Source: Pegea sp. RAD2-039
Taxonomy: Eukaryota > Chordata > Thaliacea > Salpida > Salpidae
Length of the DNA stretch: 64,000 bases
Assembly (NCBI GenBank): GCA_034620365.1
Contig: JAQGEQ010000023.1
Location: 62,001-126,000 of the forward strand
Reading direction: 5' to 3'
The notes below the pieces were generated by a model. That model was not told the DNA's origin, ran no database searches, and saw only the letters and a program-made list of their open reading frames with translations. Each line of letters opens with the position of its first letter. Within the stretch, counting starts at the first letter, position 1. Position numbers and translations under genes: made by a program. Shown piece after piece: positions 6,001 to 49,911 of the stretch.

Positions 6001-6920
6001 GAGATGAAACCGATCATCGAGTCAGTTATCTTCTACTCTCTACCTCCCCCTAGTGGCTATTTTTTTCATCTTTAGTGTCTTGGCTGAAATCATCAAATGT
6101 CGAGAAGAGATTTACAACTTCCAAACAGATCTTCCGTTTACATATGATCAAGTCAAACAAAGATTAGAAGATCAACTCCAACACATCAAAAACTCGTTAA
6201 ATCCAATTGATCTTAAAGATCTTCAAAGCTCTTCCGACTTCTCTTTCAAACCTCACAAGTCAGTTCCTCTTTCTTATTTTCTGCATGGCTGATTTCTTGC
6301 TCTGTTTTGTTGATGAAGTCATCAAAAACGCTTGATGACGTCATCGTTTCATGCATGACTAACTTTTGTTCTTTTTTTTGTTTCGTTCTCGTCCTCTACA
6401 TCTGCATGTTGTTGTTGGAATCGAAGATCGAAGTCTCCAGGTAATGGCATTATATGCGGCAGTGACGTCATCATCGCTCTCACACGCTCTTCATCTTTCT
6501 CATCTTAATCTTTCTACTCAGAGCAAGGAAGGATTCTTCCCCGCAAACCTACTGGAGCTCATCCGGCCAGAATCTTGCATCTGCCACAATCAACAGTGGA
6601 CCAGTTGCGTGTGTCCTTGCGACCGGAAGAGCCCGCCCAAGACTCCTTTCGAAGGTCTTCATCATCTTCCCACTTCTCGAATCTCAAACTTCTTTTTTAG
6701 GAGTTTAAAAGTTCGACATCCTATCAACAAACGTTCCAAAACAAGAACACCTTCGAAACGTCGTCGTCGCCGTGGAATAGTGGGTCTTCAGATTCACCGG
6801 TCACCTACCAAGGCGTCCACAGAGGTTACGGAAGTTTAAGCTCCAATAAAAGATTATCAGCTTCCATCCGGAAGAAGATGCCGTCGATTGGACGCCGTCG
6901 AAGTCGTCCTGGTAACTGAT
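3..6920 (+). CDS. MYO9: Class IX unconventional myosin (motor-RhoGAP), 5' end missing
   Basis: Actin motor fused to a Rho GTPase-activating tail, expected to travel on actin and switch Rho off locally. The window opens inside the motor; exons I can place include 3-82, 411-552, 610-790, about 983-1257 (ANPFFVRCMQPN, motor end), 1344-1475 and 1528-1851. Four IQ motifs for calmodulin-type light chains follow in 1528-2266 (e.g. AAVLIQSIYRMYAVRKIY, IITIQKNWRAYKARQKY). A low-complexity acidic/serine linker spans 2344-4052. A C1 zinc domain (C-x2-C and C-x2-C pairs after HRFLIRQWG) lies in 4938-5362, and RhoGAP in about 5411-6257, with the arginine-finger context TSGIYRKS. The order motor-IQ-C1-RhoGAP is diagnostic of class IX. 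The loop-2 exon near 834-930 and the last tail exons (6366-6920) are not securely joined; the stop could be 6838 or 6920. Two introns carry minisatellites. Family call very sure; exon details moderate. Confidence 0.93.
1878..1967 (+). repeat. 18-base minisatellite, five units, in a myosin intron
   Basis: Five head-to-tail units of 18 bases, consensus TTGACTCCCAGCTAACTG. Units alternate between TTG and TAG at the start and differ by A/G in the middle, so the array probably grew by duplicating pairs of units. It lies in the intron between the IQ exon ending at 1851 and the exon starting at 2015. Confidence 0.9.
4477..4916 (+). repeat. Long TTTCTACTGGTTG-type minisatellite in a myosin intron
   Basis: About 440 bases of imperfect 12-15-base units based on TTTCTACTGGTTG and TTTTACTGGTTG. 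It fills nearly all of the intron between the exon ending about 4470 and the C1-domain exon starting at 4938. It is strongly pyrimidine/GT-biased on the + strand. The open frames running through it (valine/leucine/phenylalanine/tyrosine-rich) are by-products of the repeat, not protein. Confidence 0.92.
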
Positions 6921-39016: not shown

Positions 39017-42000
39017 TTTTAACTAAACAGAATTCTGAAAAAATGATAGACACTTTCAACATAAGTTGCTTAAGTATAAATAACTTTAAATAATTTTTAT
39101 ATGTAAATTCCATGACTATACCAAAATCTATCACGTCTTTGATTAGGTTTTACTTATGCCACTACAATGTTTCTATTTTTTCTGTATCAATTTTAAATTG
39201 TAATACATAAAGCTGTTGGATTTGACACTTGCAGCCATATGTCGAATAAATAAATAAACTTAATTCAAAGATATAAAATCACTAATATAATTACTTATAT
39301 AAGAAGTTACAACAATATAACTTCAGTTTAAGACCATTATATAAGTATAATACAGAAAAGGCTTTGACATCAATAAAACTTTTCAAACAAATATACATTT
39401 AACTTCAAAACAAGATGAATTATTTAAAATGAAATTCAGAAAAGCTTTTTAAATCATTTTATCATAACAACTGATTTTGCTTAGGTTTGTAAACATAAGG
39501 GGTGTTACTAATTTTCAAAAACTTGTTTTAAACAAATTATGAACTAAATAAAATCAGTAATTTAATGAAATTAATATTAATAAATACAACTAAAAATAAA
39601 ATCTTAAATTAATTAAAAATTGTTTAAAAATACATCAGCTATAATAAAAAAGGTATAAAATGGAAATAAATTCAAAAGAATAATCCTATTTTTGAAAGAT
39701 CAATTAAAACCAATGAATACTTGAAAAGTAAATTAAAATTATAATTGTTTTACAAATTAGCTTGAATTAAAAATTAGATTTTAGCAAACTTTGTTCATTA
39801 AAATTCTGGTGTTCATAGACAAAAATAAAAAGATTTATTTAAATTTTAAATGTTTTTAATAAAATGTTAAAAAAAAGTAGAAACTTTTAACAAATTGTTT
39901 TTTAATAAAAGGAAAATACAATAAAATTGCATTAATTAGATTTTTCTATCTCTTGATCAAAAAAGACCTGTATAAACAACCTTTAATAAGTAAGATACTT
40001 TGGGCTTTTTTAGTTGTGCGTAAAATAAAAAATAGAGAAAGTAGTTTATTGCAACTAGAAAAAAAACACCTTACAAAATTTTAGAAACATTTTGAGCAAT
40101 ATGAACACATTACCAATTGAAAAAATCGTAAAATCTAAATTTTCTTTAAAGACATTAGTGACGGTAGCACTGACGTCTAAGAATTTATTAGGCTTCTAAA
40201 TCTTTTGGGGCTTCAATTTTTACCAATTAAAAGTTCTTCTACTTGCCATTACTTACACATATTCATTCTTAATCAGCCTTAAAGAAGTTTAATTAACATC
40301 CATAATTTTTGTATATTGTAATTTTAAGTAACACGCGTGGTGATAACGGTTATAGATGCTGATGAAATAAATTTTATAACTAAAAGAGGTAATTAGAATT
40401 CAACTAATCAACTAAATTTCTCAAAAATATTCAAAACGGTTTTTTACAAATATTCCTCTAAAAATTTTTTTTCTGAATTAAGTTTTCTTGAAAAACGCCA
40501 ATAAAAACTTTTCTATTGATTTTCAAAGTAATTAACACCATTACAAAAACTAAAAATTAAATTATGAGCTACGCCTTTTTAAATTTAACAAAGGCTTATT
40601 TTTAAAATAAACAAATTATATAATAATAACTGATTAAATTAAATCAAAAATTACTCCCAATAGAGTTCTGCTATTAACAAATAAGATTATACTTATTTAC
40701 AGTCGTAATAACTGTGAATTATTATAGCCTTTTATATTTTATAAATTATATCAAAGGTATATTGTATACGTAAACTGAAAATATTTTGATATCATCAAAT
40801 AAAAGAAATGGAATGAAAGTTAACCACGCTTTTAAGTCTTTTTCTTAAATTCTATACATATCATTTAAGTTTGAAAGTTTAGACGAGCTTAAGAATACTT
40901 TTTTAAAAAAGTTTTTAACACTGCTAGATAAAAGGTAGACTAACTGAGGCATAAGAACTCAACTAGCTATTCGCACAAAGTAATTAAATGCAATCTGAAT
41001 AATATCTAGATTTATTTTTGTAGTTTTAAAATGTTGTTAGAGTTGATTAATAAATTGTGATGAATCCATTCATTTTGTATCAGATGATACAGCTCTTATA
41101 TCGAACACAGAACTGATAAAACCTATTTCTTTAAAATATATAATTCCAATTTTATCTATTTATTTAACGCGTAGCAGCGAGTGACAAATTCAACAGCTCT
41201 TATAAAACACAAACATAGAACAAAGAGGTAAAAGAGGTTGAAGGTCTTCGTTATCACAACTTAAGATTATTACAGAAAGAATAGAAACACTGTAGAGGCA
41301 TAGGTAAAACGTAAGTTATGAGTAAAGATGTAATGTGACAAAATAGAAGAAGAAAGTGAGGATACTAACAGTGTTACATGTTACTTGTCAAAGAAACCAC
41401 TTAAATCTTGTTTTAAAGAACTAATCTAGCGTGTTATCTTGTAAAAAAACTCTTTGAATAGACATATTGCAAACTTATAAAGTCCATAATACTCTAAATA
41501 CTTAGGAATTGGTAATCTTTTTATTTCTTCATGTTTTCTAATAAAATCTACTGATTTTATTTAATTGATTGATTTCAACTTTTTGTGAAAATTGGTATCA
41601 ATGTTTTATGATTTCAAGAAAACTTTCATTATATTGTTTACTGATTGATTTCATCTTTGTATACATTCAAAACTCAATATAAGAACAAAAGCTGAAAATA
41701 TGTAAACCACAATTTGATTGTTTTTGTTCAAAGTCCATTCCATAAGTTGGATTTTATCAAGACCTTGTTTACTTTTGACATCATGTTTTTGTTATCAAAA
41801 CATATAAAAGATTAACTTGAATACTTACATCAAGAGTTAATTGTAAATTAGTTTGCTCATAATTAGAAACTTCATATTTACCAAAGAAGAGTTATTTTAA
41901 TAGATTTTTATGAATAATCTTTTTAGGCTGAACAAGTTTCAGACAATTATCAGATGTTTTTATGCCAACAAAGATTTCATACGTGATTGACACGACTGAT

Positions 42001-42402
42001 ATTAGCTTGATAAAAACTAATTATTAATTTTGTATGCATCAGTTTGAGGTAAAAAGTAAATAAAGTTGATGTTTATGATCAACGAAATGTCAGTTATCAA
42101 TTAACTTTATTTCATAAAATATATTTTTGTTGATTATAGGTTTCAAAATTAAAGATAAAAAATAACAAAAACTGCAGCTTGAATAAAGTGTCAAATTCTC
42201 TCTTAGAGAATCTGTTTAGTTTTATTAAGTTTTAGAACGAAATTATTTTTCAGCGTTTAACTTCAGAAATGTGCTTCAACTTTTTTGAAGAACTATTTTT
42301 TCCTCTTGATACACTGAAACGATATTTTAATAAAACGAATTCTTATATCTAATATTTAAAGTTTTTTTGACCAACTTTATTTTTTGATTGTATCAAGACA
42401 CA
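39017..42402. other. AT-rich spacer upstream of the intelectin-like gene
   Basis: I see no gene, tandem array or strong hairpin here. It includes the promoter side of both divergent neighbours. Confidence 0.55.
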
Positions 42403-45400
42403 ATGAAGCTGGTTTTATACTTAACTGTTTTTGTGTTGTCCTGTCCACTCTTGGTTAATTGTATAGCTGTAGATTTGGGTGACTGCGCATGCTTATGTGG
42501 ACTTGAAACTAACGGGGGTGTATTTGGAAACAGTCTTCAAACTTCAGTGAGTTTTAAAACTTATCAATAATCAAGCTAAAGAGATTATTACAAAACAAGA
42601 AAACTTTTTAGATTGGCAGCTTTGCTGATCAAGTTCGTGGAGAGAAGGGAGATGTTGGAATGCCAGGCAAAAGTGGGCTTCAGGTTAGTCCCTTTAAAAC
42701 TATTTTACAAAACAGTAATAAGAAAATCCATTTTACCAAAAGTCAATTCAGAGATTAACTAAATGTATAAACATGTTTGAAATATTAGGGGCCACCAGGG
42801 CGACCTGGTTTACGAGGAGTTAGAGGACCTCCGGGAACTTGTAGGTCAATGTTCAATTTTTAATGAAGTTTTAATTTGTATTTTTTGCTTCAGCTACTGG
42901 CTCATCAACAAGCCAGCTGTTAGCATCTTGTTTGGCATACAGAAATTCTGGGAGTTCACAGAATGGAATTTATCAGATTAAACCTTCCAACTTCTCATCA
43001 ACTTTTGCTGTTTGTTGCCATTTGTTTTGACAAATCAAATTCTAAAGTTGATTTTCAGACCTATTGTGATATGGAAACTACTGGAGGTGGCTGGACTCTG
43101 GTGGCTTCAATTCATGAAAATAACATTAATGGTAGATGTAATGTGGGTGACTTGTGGTCAGACGACCAGGGTGCTAACGGTTCCAGTGGTTAGTTACAGT
43201 TATTAAACTTTCATCTTTCATCAAAATTAAACTTTTATTGATATTTGTTCAGTTTCAAGTAATTGGGAAAATACGAATGTATTTGGACATATTGAAAGTG
43301 CCACAAGTGAAGATTATAAAAATTCTGGTTATTTTAACCTTGAAGTAAGCTTACTTCTTCATTCATCAACTTTCAATCTCCAGTTTATTGTTATTATAAA
43401 TTGAATATTGTTTACTGCAGTCAACTGATCTTATGCTTTGGCATGTTCCAAATGATACACCGCCAAATAGATGGTCAGATGCAGCTTTCTTGAAGTACTA
43501 CACTGATAACAACTTTCTAAGCAATTATGGAGGAAACCTCCGAAGTTTATATCAACGTTATTCACCAAAGCATCTCGATGCTAATCTGACAAGTACCTTC
43601 ATCTTAAATAGATTTATATTTAAACCGACAATTTTAGATAATGCTTATGAGGGGGTGGCCACTATTCTCAACGCTGTTAATGAATCAGCCGTCGATATTA
43701 GAGGCGCGATTCCTGACTTTTTCCTTTATCAATATGACGGCTCACCAAGTCCAATGACCTCGATATCGGATGGAGGTAACGACATGTATGATAGCGGGAA
43801 CCAGGTTAATTGGTTGTCAACAGCTTCCATCAAGCTTTAACTCTTCTGTTTCAAGGTCTCTATCCGTGTTGATGAGGGAGAATGGAAGCTTTTGTCGTAT
43901 GGAGAGTCATTTACGTAAGTTCAATTACTTTCTTCTCAGATAAATTCCCCTTCATCTGATTTTTGTAGTGATTTGAATATCGGTTATGATGTGGCAACTA
44001 ATATTTATGCTCATCCTTTTGTCACTTTGTGGCATATTGAGAACCGGGACGGTTTGAAGGAAACTTTTGATTTAAAAGTAAATTATAAATCTTATTTTTT
44101 TGCAAATTGTGTACGCTTAGTTGATGCATAGGTGGAATCGGGAACAGGAGCTGATAATTCAGGATACCTAGCAAGTTATTCAGGAGACGTAATCTTGGAT
44201 AATTTTGTTCTTCATTACAAAACATTCAATGTTTATGGAGCTGACGACCCTTCGATTGTAGAAGTTTATTTTTCCATCTCGAATACTCAAGTGAAAACTG
44301 CTTTTAATCAATCACAACAACTTGGAATTGATTATGATTATTGTTTGTTGACTGAAAACTGTTTTAGGACTGGGGCTCTGTGTACACTGTAAATCCAGAG
44401 AATTTCAAGCCTCTTCAATGGAGTCGTGAAACTGATAATTTAATGAATACTATCAGGTTTAGTGGATTCCCTCAAAATATTATCGCCGGTTATACTCTTT
44501 TTTCACGGTTAGCTTTAAACACAGGAGTTGACACACTAAATTTTAGTAATTTATTAATTTCTAAAGTTCAACTTTCATCAATATAGCCGAGTCTAACATC
44601 CGGGAAGCTTTAACAATTTTACTTCGAGTCATTTCAAGATTCCCGACAATCGAAGGTCAATTTAAAGCTTAAAATTCAATCATTTTGAAATGAAAATAAT
44701 TGTTACAGGTGTGGACTGCTCAAGGTACAATGAAAGTGTCATTACTCCGGTGAAGTTTAGTGTGGGATCAGAAGAAGAAGTGATGAGAAGGACTCCTCCA
44801 ATGCAGAAGAAAGAAGTTACTCCTGGCTTCATCCAATTCCGCGCGATCGATCCTGATAACAATGCATTTGCTCTCTGCCCTGGGGTCAAGTTAGTTCTTT
44901 CGATTTGTGAATATTTCAGAATATCACTTCTTATCATTAAAACTTATTTCTCACTTCACTGTGAGATCTCACTTTAAAAGGATAAATTGTAAAATAGTAA
45001 AGTATATTTCCACTTTTTTATGAACTTCATCAAATTGAAATTAATTTCTCTATATGATCATTAAATTCTTCTTTCGAAATTATTTCTACATCAAAGGTCG
45101 GCAGCTTGTAGAACAGCATCTGTTTGTATTGGAGGTGCATCGCATTCTTCAACAGGTGCGAAGACATGCGGTGACTTCTCTGGTAAACCTCAAATATAGA
45201 ATCGATAAAATTATAAAGTTTCATTTTCTTCAGGATTTGACGGATTAAAAGAAGATAATCCGACAGATTTCGAGCCTGCTGGTTCAGCGAAAAGCCTCAA
45301 CGATTTGAAGTCTACAATTATGATCTTTACTCGAGACACAAACTCTGTTTCTCAAACTACTCCACCTCCAGTTGTTGTAAAGAAAGTCAAGTCCAAAAAG

Positions 45401-45409
45401 TCTGCCTGA
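42403..45409 (+). CDS. Intelectin-like secreted lectin with collagen-like stalk and split recognition domain
   Basis: Fifteen exons join in phase to 668 codons, about twice the length of human ITLN1 (313). A signal peptide (MKLVLYLTVFVLSCPLLVNC) is followed by Cys-rich residues, then a short Gly-X-Y stretch (GPPGRPGLRGVRGPPGT, exons 42612-42683 and 42789-42840). The fibrinogen-related/intelectin domain starts at 42894 (NGIYQIKP, YCDMETTGGGWTLVASIHEN, DYKNSGYF, MLWHVPND, LRSLYQRYSP). After this, about 270 residues unrelated to intelectin (43575-44708) intervene, with SISDGGNDMYDSGNQ as a marker. The domain then resumes (ESVITPVKFSVGSEEE, TPGFIQFRAID, ALCPGVK, VCIGGA, CGDFSGFDG, STIMIFTR). Residues binding sugar in human ITLN1 (His263, Glu274, Trp288) are not kept. 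Likely an innate-immune or tunic lectin with altered specificity (inferred). Confidence 0.9.
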
Positions 45410-46700: not shown

Positions 46701-48639
46701 GCATGATAACACATACCAGCCGTCATTTGCACTTAGTAATTGAGCTCCACTGAACAAATTAACTGATGGAATTTTATATTTTCAACCGCTGCAGGATAGG
46801 GCCCTGTTTCTATCTAACAATTTGCAAGCGCATTAATGTATGTATAATTCTGATTTTTAATTAGTTTTGCATGTAATTACAAAGCACTAACATAACTTCA
46901 GGCTTCGCTTTATTTGTTGGTATTTTCTCGTAGTTCCACAACTTGCAGCTATTTCAACAGCAGGGTAATCCCTTCCATTGCCATACGTTTATAAAATCAG
47001 CTGCTGTAAGCTTGTTTCAGTTGAGCTTTGATGCTGTGCAGCCTTATTAAGAAATATTTGCTATTTTAATTCAAATAAAAACTTGAGCAAGCGTTTCTCA
47101 TAATAGAGATATTTAATCTTGAAGGCTTTAATAAGTAATAGAACGAAATTAACAAATGGTTCATATAGTTATCTGGATAAATAATTTTTTCCTAGGCCGT
47201 ATTACAAATCTATGTTACGTTTGAAGAAAATTTTTCGCTAATCAAAACTTAAATAGTCTTACCATAAACTGTCTGTGAATAAGTCATATTTTTTTTTGCT
47301 GCTATCAATTATTAAAGTTTATCAGTAATGAAAAAGCATCAATTTGAAAGTCATAGTATCATTTTAGCTTTCTAGAGTATAGAGATGCAATCATATGTCT
47401 TAAGTTATGCTCCCAAAAACTTTGTGCATTACTCTTTTAATGAAACTTATGACAGAATATAATTGTTAACCTTTTTTACTCTATTTAATCAAGCAATTGT
47501 TTTGCAATGTATAAAATAAAAAATAATTGACGTAAGGCAACTTATTTTTAGTACAGCTTTCTTCCATTTCAAGCTTTCTGATTAGCTATTTTTCGGTCTT
47601 TTAGTCACAAAGCCAAATTAAAATGTGTAGTAGTAAGCTTATCAATAAATAATGTGGTAAGTAAGTTTCATTCCTGGCGCCCAGAAAAGTATTTTTGAAT
47701 AAGTACTCTTACTATTTTAGTTTTTAAAATTTCTTAATATATTTTCGAATATATTTTGTTCAGTAAGTAATTAAAACATATTTTTTTGGAATTTTTTTGC
47801 TAACTATGGTTTATTGTAATGTCAATAGTTAAGTAACGATCATAAATTTTAATATGCTTTTATGTATAAACATTACATAAAAAACTATTTAAATAATTAA
47901 AAATTGGTTTTTAGCTAAAAAAAATTTCCTAAAAACTTGCTTATAGAGTATATCTTTGAATAAATTATCTTAAGCTTAAGAAAACTTGTAGAATAAATTC
48001 ATTTCTAAAAATTATCATGTTAATTATTATTGTAATTCTATAAAATGTATAAATTATTTTTAGCAAACAATATTTTCATAAACATAATTAAATCTTTTTA
48101 ATTTTTTGCTTCTATAATTACAGTTAATATAAAACAAACTATTTATTAAAAAACCGATTTTATAAAATATCATTTTAGATCATGTTAATCTTGAATATTT
48201 GTATTTTTTTTTTGATATTGCTTTCTTTGTAAATATTTTTGTCACTATAATTATTTATAGTTTTAAGCATTGTAACATATACGATTAAGTGATTTAAAAA
48301 CTATTTATGTTATTAAATTGATTCTGATTTATTTTTTTAAATTTATTCTTTTTTTATTAAAAAAAAACTTCTCTAAATATAAATTTTTTCATATAGAAAC
48401 TATTTCCTGGTTTTTGGATAATTTTTCTTAAAGTTAAATGAAGTTAAGAGCTAATTATTTGTTGTTTTAAGGTTGACTGTTTATTATAAGAGTGAATATT
48501 TATTATTTACCTATAATATTTGTCTATAAAAGTATATTATTCATTTTTTTAAATAATAAATTTATATTTATTTATGTTTAAAATTTAATGTTTGATGGTT
48601 TATTTTTTAAGAGATAAATTCTTTATTTCAAGTAATATA

Positions 48640-49911
48640 ATGTCTGATTCAAATAACAAAGTTTCAACTGTTGAAGAACCAGATAAATCTTTGGTAATAA
48701 AAGCTAATCCTCAACGAAAAAGATTTGGGAAATCAAAGCTAGCAAATAATAACAGAATTCCTGATGAAATATTACAAAATGATAAGTTGAATCAAGCAAT
48801 CAAAATTATACCAGAAAACTATGAGTTTGAAATCCATAAAACGATTCATAAAATTCGACAAGCAAATGCTAAAACTGTTGCTCTTCAGTTTCCAGAAGGC
48901 TTACTTCTATTTGCTTGTACTATTGCTGATATAATTGAAACATTTACAGAAGCTTCTACTGTTATAATGGGTGATGTTACATATGGAGCTTGTTGTGTTG
49001 ATGACTATAGTGCTAGAGCTCTTTCCTGTGACTTTATGGTTCATTATGGTCATAGTTGTTTGGTTCCAATTAACCATATGCCAGATATTAAAATGCTTTA
49101 TATATTTGTCCATATTCAGATTGATAACCATCATTTTATAGACACCATTAGTTTTAACTTTCAGCCTGGAACCACACTTTTATTAATTAGTACAGTTCAG
49201 TTTATAAAAGTTCTACAATTTACAAAAAAGGAATTAGAAAAGAAAAATATTAAAGTTATTATACCACAAAGTAGACCTCTGTCGGCTGGGGAAGTTTTAG
49301 GTTGTACTTCTCCTGATATGAACTCTTCAGGTGCTGATGCAATTATCTATCTTGGTGATGGTCGTTTTCATCTTGAGTCCATGATGATTGCTAATCCTTC
49401 TATTCCAGCATATGCTTATGATCCATATAAAAAGCAACTTACAATTGAAAAATATGATCATAATAAAATGAGAGATATTCGTAAGGATGCTATTGATAAA
49501 GCAGCAAAAGCTCAAGTTTGGGGCTTAATTATGGGGACACTTGGTAGGCAAGGGTCCCCTAAAGTAATTAAACATTTAAAAGATACAATGATAAGAGCTG
49601 GGAAAGATGTAATAGTGGTTTTGTTATCTGAGATTTATCCAAATAAACTCAGTTTATTTAAAGAAGTTGAAGCATGGGTTCAAGTAGCTTGTCCTAGATT
49701 ATCAATTGATTGGGGAACAGCTTTTGATAAACCTCTTTTGAATCCATATGAAGCTGGAGTTGCTTTAAAACTTTGTGAGTTTAAAAACCCTTATCCAATG
49801 GACTTTTATGCTAATGATAGCTCTGGACCTTGGACTCCAAATAATCAAGAACACAGACCATCAGTAAAAAGTTTACTTGCCCAGCGCCAAAAATTGTTGA
49901 AAGTGAAATAA
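48640..49911 (+). CDS. DPH1: Diphthamide synthase subunit DPH1 (intronless)
   Basis: With DPH2, transfers the 3-amino-3-carboxypropyl group of S-adenosylmethionine to a histidine of elongation factor 2, the first step of diphthamide. One open frame; ATG at 48640 (MSDSNNKVS) is chosen because an acceptor-like TTTCAAG stands 8 bases before it, giving 423 codons, close to the human length. Conserved blocks: [58 protein letters not shown] and [10 protein letters not shown]. The cysteines in GACCVDD, GCTSPD and ACPRL are the expected three ligands of the radical 4Fe-4S cluster. Human DPH1 has many introns; none here. PPP4R2 follows 137 bases downstream on the same strand. Confidence 0.96.

Follow-up and report, generated by a model that had tools for sequence, protein, structure and literature searches.

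Intelectins (X-type lectins), characterized by calcium-dependent binding of exocyclic 1,2-diols, are studied as guards that distinguish microbial sugars from those of the organism itself. In XEEL and human intelectin-1 the lectin domain starts with a FReD region that holds a motif of the HENNxxGxCxxGD type, and its first half (half 1) is joined to the second (half 2) by 11 or 9 residues, respectively. A collagen-stalked lectin of intelectin type from the ascidian Halocynthia has a collagen-like stem preceding the lectin domain; we know of no inserted domain in it. Outside vertebrates, an excerpt of PMC6321704 describes intelectin-like proteins of the placozoan Trichoplax (31 genes), FReD-bearing and secreted, which have ~250 residues and lack collagen repeats. 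The gene described here lies at 42403-45409 (+) in a 64,000-nucleotide stretch of the genome of the salp Pegea sp. RAD2-039 (the window, part of contig C101; C26, C142, C247 and similar names designate contigs of the same assembly). Like the placozoan proteins its product is FReD-bearing and predicted to be secreted, and like the Halocynthia lectin it has a collagen-like stem, a feature added relative to XEEL and intelectin-1. It follows the same order of features as these two proteins, but 249 residues separate its two halves.

A single gene model codes for a signal peptide, a collagen-like stretch and the intelectin domain in two halves. Its final version has 16 exons and 647 residues, with the insert at residues 253-501. 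The core of the insert (residues 260-501) is an unnamed domain of DGGNDMYD type, for which the working name X is used. As judged from sequence, the novelty of this locus is an intelectin carrying an undescribed domain that has no entry in the copies of Pfam and NCBIfam searched. No inserted domain was found in the intelectin literature covered, which consisted of titles and the opening lines of abstracts with most subscription journals outside; the same architecture may exist in database records of other tunicates.

Comparison of a 638-residue draft of the protein with PDB sequences (phmmer) gave matches to XEEL (4wmo, 1.9e-57) and human intelectin-1 (4wmq, 8.1e-57). Draft residues 99-253 align with XEEL residues 14-170 and residues 503-583 with XEEL residues 182-263. 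The FReD-like amino-terminal part and the specific carboxyl-terminal part of XEEL and ITLN1 are thus both present, as two stretches in the right order, and the lectin domain is interrupted between them. A preliminary description of the locus, made from the sequence alone, had recognized known intelectin blocks before and after a long segment and had stated that known intelectins have only a short loop there. All the blocks that it quoted are in place, in frame and in order, and the counts of 11 and 9 residues agree with its statement on the loop. Fibrinogen_C of Pfam matches only residues 102-165 (3e-8; 5-64 of 221 positions). The full-length Fibrinogen_C match expected of a ficolin or another fibrinogen-domain lectin is absent. 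The Pfam Collagen model reaches 22.7 bits at residues 58-88, below its cut-off of 27.2.

The structural calcium motif, given as HENXXXGXCTXGD in the part of PMC9682848 at hand, is kept in the window protein as HENNINGRCNVGD, with T replaced by N. In the three paralogues of the gene it reads HENNIKGKCSEGD on C26 (T to S) and HENNPDGKCTSGD in both genes on C142 (C142a and C142b). The sugar site had a different fate. The CNVEHHC segment of XEEL is CRTASVC in the window protein, where N-x-E-H has become R-T-A-S, CRPSSIC in C26, CDPGRVC in C142a and CFISRFC in C142b, and the Glu-His pair is absent in all four genes. The window protein shares CGDFSGFD with intelectin-1, but the Trp that follows it, which we take to be a sugar-site residue, is replaced by Gly. 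By its spacing, the N-x-E-H of XEEL would correspond to Asp279-x-Glu281-His282 of the lamprey lectin LSSL, whose Asp279, Glu281 and His282 are listed as calcium or ligand contacts in the same excerpt (PMC9682848). Its sequence identifies the window protein as an intelectin by descent, and by function it is a putative one at most. Because the calcium motif is kept and the Glu-His pair is lost, the intelectin head probably serves as a scaffold while X, whose invariant acidic residues could hold calcium, has probably taken over recognition.

The 105.7-Mb assembly was searched with half 1 and half 2 of the window protein and with a piece of XEEL, scoring the best candidates only, so that divergent copies could be missed. 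The three queries led to the same four loci, on C101 (the window gene), on C26 and two on C142. Spliced alignment places X between the halves at the same site in all four, a recurrence that exceeds chance, and none of the queries found an intelectin locus without the insert among the best candidates. When the window gene and C26 are compared over 13 exons, which leave out the first two and the last one, nine have equal length (52, 116, 130, 92, 59, 159, 89, 181 and 86 nucleotides, nt) and the remaining four are 3 or 6 nt apart (172/166, 167/161, 109/112 and 140/137 nt). Protein identity between the pair is 60% in half 1, 47% in X and 52% in half 2. The proportions of non-synonymous and synonymous differences (pN/pS) are 0.258/0.673 in the amino-terminal half, 0.383/0.749 in X and 0.315/0.709 in the carboxyl-terminal half, the synonymous ones being near saturation, a pattern that indicates purifying selection on all three parts of the gene. 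Since the paralogues have diverged with non-synonymous differences well below synonymous ones, the interrupted architecture is not young and has been maintained. In C142a a stop codon lies in the path of the automatic model at the border of X; a phase-1 intron placed there by hand removes it and keeps the frame. Near-identical short open reading frames (ORFs) are found upstream of the window gene (~41900-42200) and of its C26 paralogue (L009, ~6200-6560), genes whose coding parts are about half different; these stretches are candidates for repeated DNA or for conserved regulatory sequence. Further Fibrinogen_C matches, missed by the intelectin queries, occur on C8, C12, C17, C21 (below cut-off), C39, C80, C121 and C250.

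The paralogues bear also on the gene model (Table 1). The architecture and frame of the exon chain in the preliminary description hold, while its boundaries need two changes, at the start and at the end of X: the chain, as it was probably meant, was rebuilt and yields the 668 residues and 270 extra residues (announced as about 270), which become 647 and 249 after correction. The exon given there as 43421-43804 probably contains a phase-1 intron of 45 base pairs (bp), 43593-43637, a sequence that is stop-free, a multiple of three in length and bounded by intron-type ends. A phase-1 intron is found at this position in C26 and C142b by spliced alignment and in C142a, where it was placed by hand and frame-checked. 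The end of X is better modelled by exons 44368-44507 and 44567-44655, because this choice gives the same phase-2 and phase-1 borders as in the three paralogues. The second of them is 89 nt long, likewise in C26, C142a and C247_5, and has 98 nt in C142b. A model with a 41-bp intron (44546-44586) is in frame and gives 668 residues, with less support from the paralogues. A 17-nt microexon (44639-44655) was considered as frame-keeper at the end of X and dropped, exon 44567-44655 having fitted the paralogue phases. Both splice corrections are drawn from DNA alone.

X behaves as an exon module. Five introns interrupt it, and the internal intron phases are 0,2,0,0 in the four intelectin copies and in 9 of the 11 X copies modelled on C247, a contig where intelectin queries matched no half. 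The borders of X carry phase-1 introns on both sides in the four intelectin genes, as read from DNA with two of the start introns placed by hand. A phase-2 intron followed by a phase-1 intron marks the end of X in the three paralogues, in the window gene as modelled and in C247_3, C247_5 and C247_11. On C247 a phase-1 start was obtained for C247_3 in both alignment runs, for C247_5 in one run and for C247_9 in the other; both borders are phase 1 in C247_3, and in C247_5 in one run, while in the other copies one border or none could be assigned. Symmetric 1-1 modules are the units used in exon shuffling of extracellular domains. With a phase-1 intron on either side, X is a symmetric module of this kind, so that exon shuffling is the best explanation for its presence in the intelectin. 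When 72 X domains are placed in a tree, those of the four intelectins group in a single clade (99/96) and nine C247 copies in another (97/83). A single insertion followed by duplication fits the data because the four intelectin copies belong to a single clade. The tunicate alignment (A1) holds 13 X copies, including 9 of the 11 from C247; C247_10 and C247_11, in each of which an exon or intron could not be placed, were omitted. The C247 copies lie in two clusters (L032-L035; ~35-47 kb and 376-387 kb), accompanied by weaker pieces. Some of them adjoin Thr-rich mucin-like linkers and one adjoins a CUB domain (PF00431, 5.8e-12). The C247 proteins possibly belong to the matrix or mucus of the tunicate.

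The insert alone has no match in Pfam and its best E in PDB sequences is 0.12; by sequence, X copies or relatives gave no match of weight in Pfam, NCBIfam, PHROGs or PDB. A combined pattern and tblastn search detected 35 bacterial X loci (24 Bacteroidota, 7 Verrucomicrobiota, 2 Planctomycetota, 1 Marinimicrobia and 1 cyanobacterium) and 32 X loci in viral contigs. ORFs were read for 61 of these 67 loci and all entered the profiles (L092, L096, L100, L102, L111 and L115 were left out); L114 and L116, short or divergent, were omitted from the 72-row alignment and the tree. The bacterial and viral alignments A2 and A3 have 42 and 34 rows. The bacterial profile (35 rows) finds the window protein at 2.2e-15 (residues 264-418). 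The viral profile (26 rows) finds it at 1.2e-16 in two pieces, residues 256-316 and 339-484, with an extra stray piece at residues 91-133 within the intelectin half. None of 2000 shuffled decoys was listed by either profile at E up to 10. Y330, G377, D379 and D410 are invariant in all 72 rows, independently of the search pattern. The DGGxDM[YF]D block is invariant in the 72 rows as well, but the bacterial ones were fetched by that pattern. The window X is cysteine-free.

Bacterial X is encoded in uninterrupted ORFs and occurs without an intelectin (L079 of Microseira, L075 of Reichenbachiella, L058 of Bacteroidales). The five bacterial proteins that were scanned are long and multidomain and combine X with Laminin_G_3, subtilase, Ig-like or ALK_LTK_GRD domains. 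At loci L052-L086 the unnamed X is part of large proteins from Bacteroidota, Verrucomicrobiota and other groups; no Pfam model was found for it, and it constitutes a candidate new family. The viral proteins (L087-L118) are mostly short ORFs of ~240-390 residues with X alone. Tunicate and viral-type X share W-x-S and LLS(K/R) features, a region included in the match to the viral profile. The viral X of L088 is a 283-residue protein, and the gene adjacent to it has a PHROGs entry of unknown function as best match and a virion structural protein as the third (1.1e-9). A search of 50,697 phage records gave no match to the L088 X at E 1e-5 or to the window X at E 1. Taken together, these features point to X as a putative secreted or surface adhesion domain.

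The whole is best explained, and we think with good probability, by a complete extracellular domain, X, that was exon-shuffled into a tunicate intelectin gene that was later duplicated, X being the likely recognition surface. The architecture in the DNA, the four paralogues, the intron phases, the homology of X and the loss of the Glu-His pair are observed. X (~242 residues) would have been inserted into the intelectin gene as a symmetric phase 1-1 module, insertion being the presumed direction of the event, and duplication of the interrupted gene would then have given at least four copies. The encoded protein is probably secreted and oligomeric, with a signal peptide, a short collagen-like stem, which would provide multivalency, and an intelectin head. 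X is predicted to loop out of the head, leaving it after half 1 (...YSPK) and returning to it before half 2 (VDCS...). The intelectin fold with its structural calcium motif would serve as scaffold, its own sugar contacts having been lost, and X, with the invariant acidic residues D304, D308, D311, D379 and D410, would most likely be the working recognition surface, perhaps calcium-dependent and possibly directed to a microbial or matrix glycan. The view of the preliminary description that a folded extracellular domain splits the intelectin and makes a new lectin architecture is supported by the four loci, by the occurrence of X outside intelectins, both in this genome and in large bacterial proteins, and by intron phases that agree with a shuffled module, the folded state being suggested by conservation and homology. 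A second domain in the head, combined with the disappearance of the usual sugar site, would show that the intelectin scaffold can be re-armed through exon shuffling; it suggests a new way to rebuild a recognition protein with a ready-made exon cassette and points to an undescribed domain spread across bacteria, viral contigs and a tunicate.

A number of observations weigh against this explanation. For the window gene and C142a the automatic model read through the border introns, which were then positioned by hand, and the aligner query was the window protein, which favours alike intron placements; in that query the 45-bp intron was still included and two exon ends were off by a few bases (44549 and 44588). 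The 45-bp intron, being stop-free, could be retained. Exon 13 has only 34% nucleotide identity to C26, without codon-position bias, and splices at an AAG acceptor. The alignment does not settle the carboxyl-terminal ends of C142a and C142b past CGDF. On C247 the two runs disagree on the start of C247_5 and C247_9, and the phase-1 end could not be placed or is muddled in 8 of the 11 copies (muddled in C247_2). The invariance of DGGxDM[YF]D in the bacterial rows holds by construction, and the loss of canonical sugar residues does not demonstrate sugar binding by X. The Pegea genome is the only animal genome searched.

Other explanations account for part of the same evidence. That the architecture is known at the DNA level would leave room for an artefact of assembly or annotation, in which two adjacent genes, or an intelectin gene with an X gene inside one of its introns, were read as one. 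This is highly improbable given that order, strand and frame are the same in four loci on three contigs, that exon lengths are conserved in the window-C26 pair and that none of the best candidates is an intelectin locus without X; the identical order and frame of the four loci led to the rejection of both separate and nested genes. The two outcomes that the preliminary description had set against its own proposal fare accordingly: the existence of two genes is disfavoured by the one frame common to four paralogues, and none of the best-scoring candidates in the genome has its halves joined directly without X. It is conceivable, if doubtful, that X is a structural spacer or a module for oligomerisation or matrix assembly, for example in tunic, mucus or house, rather than a ligand-binding domain. 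The Thr-rich mucin-like linkers and the CUB domain next to other X copies agree with such a role, as do the long multidomain bacterial proteins; D379 and D410, invariant in 72 of 72 tunicate, bacterial and viral rows, suit a metal or ligand site better than a spacer.

A further question is the source of X, which might have been transferred horizontally from a bacterium or phage into a tunicate ancestor, gained introns and then been shuffled into the intelectin. All its relatives outside this genome are bacterial or come from viral contigs, the only outside collections that gave X matches, and the W-x-S and LLS(K/R) features unite tunicate X with the viral type. Tunicates provide a precedent in their bacterial-type CesA; the cellulose synthase gene is present in all tunicate genomes and absent from other animal genomes according to the title of PMC6523144. 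Transfer is nevertheless unlikely: the outside comparison for X covered no eukaryotic collection, the five introns inside X and the three well-separated clades fit an old residence in animals, and the join of tunicate and viral X depends on a midpoint root in a tree for which the program warns of long branches. A fuller scenario is speculative to a similar degree. In it, tunicates would have domesticated a surface-adhesion domain derived from bacteria or phages, multiplied it as a cassette of exons and set it into the middle of an intelectin, whose sugar site would have decayed as X became the recognition head; the outcome would be a lectin re-armed by domain insertion.

Table 1. Exons of the interrupted intelectin gene and the proposed intron at the start of X (window coordinates)
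Feature	Position	Strand	Description
Exon 1	42403..42546	+	Signal peptide (judged by eye); N-terminus with Cys, MKLVLYLTVFVLSCPLLVNC...; paralogue starts align
Exon 2	42612..42683	+	Collagen-like Gly-X-Y stretch begins
Exon 3	42789..42840	+	Collagen-like, GPPGRPGLRGVRGPPGT
Exon 4	42894..43009	+	Intelectin/FReD domain begins; Fibrinogen_C match
Exon 5	43059..43188	+	TYCDMETTGGGWTLVASIHENNINGRCNVGD, FReD core, structural calcium motif
Exon 6	43253..43344	+	Intelectin half 1 continued; 80% nucleotide identity to C26
Exon 7	43421..43592	+	Intelectin half 1 ends (...SLYQRYSPKHLDANLT); phase-1 exit
Proposed 45-bp phase-1 intron at X start	43593..43637	+	GTACCT...AATTTTAG; read through in the preliminary description
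Exon 8	43638..43804	+	X: N-terminal segment and SISDGGNDMYDSGNQ motif
Exon 9	43856..43914	+	X; 59 nt in both window and C26
Exon 10	43969..44077	+	X (HPFVTLWHIENRDG)
Exon 11	44132..44290	+	X (VESGTGAD...DDPSIVEVYF)
Exon 12	44368..44507	+	X (DWGS...GYTLFSR); phase-2 exit
Exon 13	44567..44655	+	X C-terminal segment (STFINIAESNIREALTILLRVISRFPTIEG); phase-1 exit; weakest exon
Exon 14	44709..44889	+	Intelectin half 2 (VDCSRYNESVITPVKF...GFIQFRAID)
Exon 15	45097..45182	+	Intelectin half 2 (CRTASVCIGG...CGDFSG); sugar-site region degenerate
Exon 16	45234..45409	+	Intelectin half 2 end, basic tail, stop

The whole window gave no match in Rfam at gathering scores. Elsewhere in the genome, on C14 (L050:5737-9740), an exon of glycosyltransferase-2/cellulose-synthase type (PF13632, 5.8e-17; PF03552, 1.1e-7) is followed directly by a GH6 domain (35 bits; cut-off 27). 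Cellulose synthase adjacent to GH6 is a hallmark of tunicates and marks the genome as one of theirs; a placozoan origin, to which papers on animals with numerous intelectins had pointed, was set aside for this reason. The small genome with its many introns of ~50 bp would suit a compact-genome lineage such as the appendicularians, but the spliced leader of Oikopleura dioica had no match when up to 3 mismatches were allowed. The rotifer spliced leader, sought as an exact match, and COX1 likewise had no match in the assembly. In the window itself, downstream of the intelectin gene, a long uninterrupted ORF at 48589-49908 (+) presumably codes for a protein resembling a diphthamide synthesis protein of DPH1/2 type.
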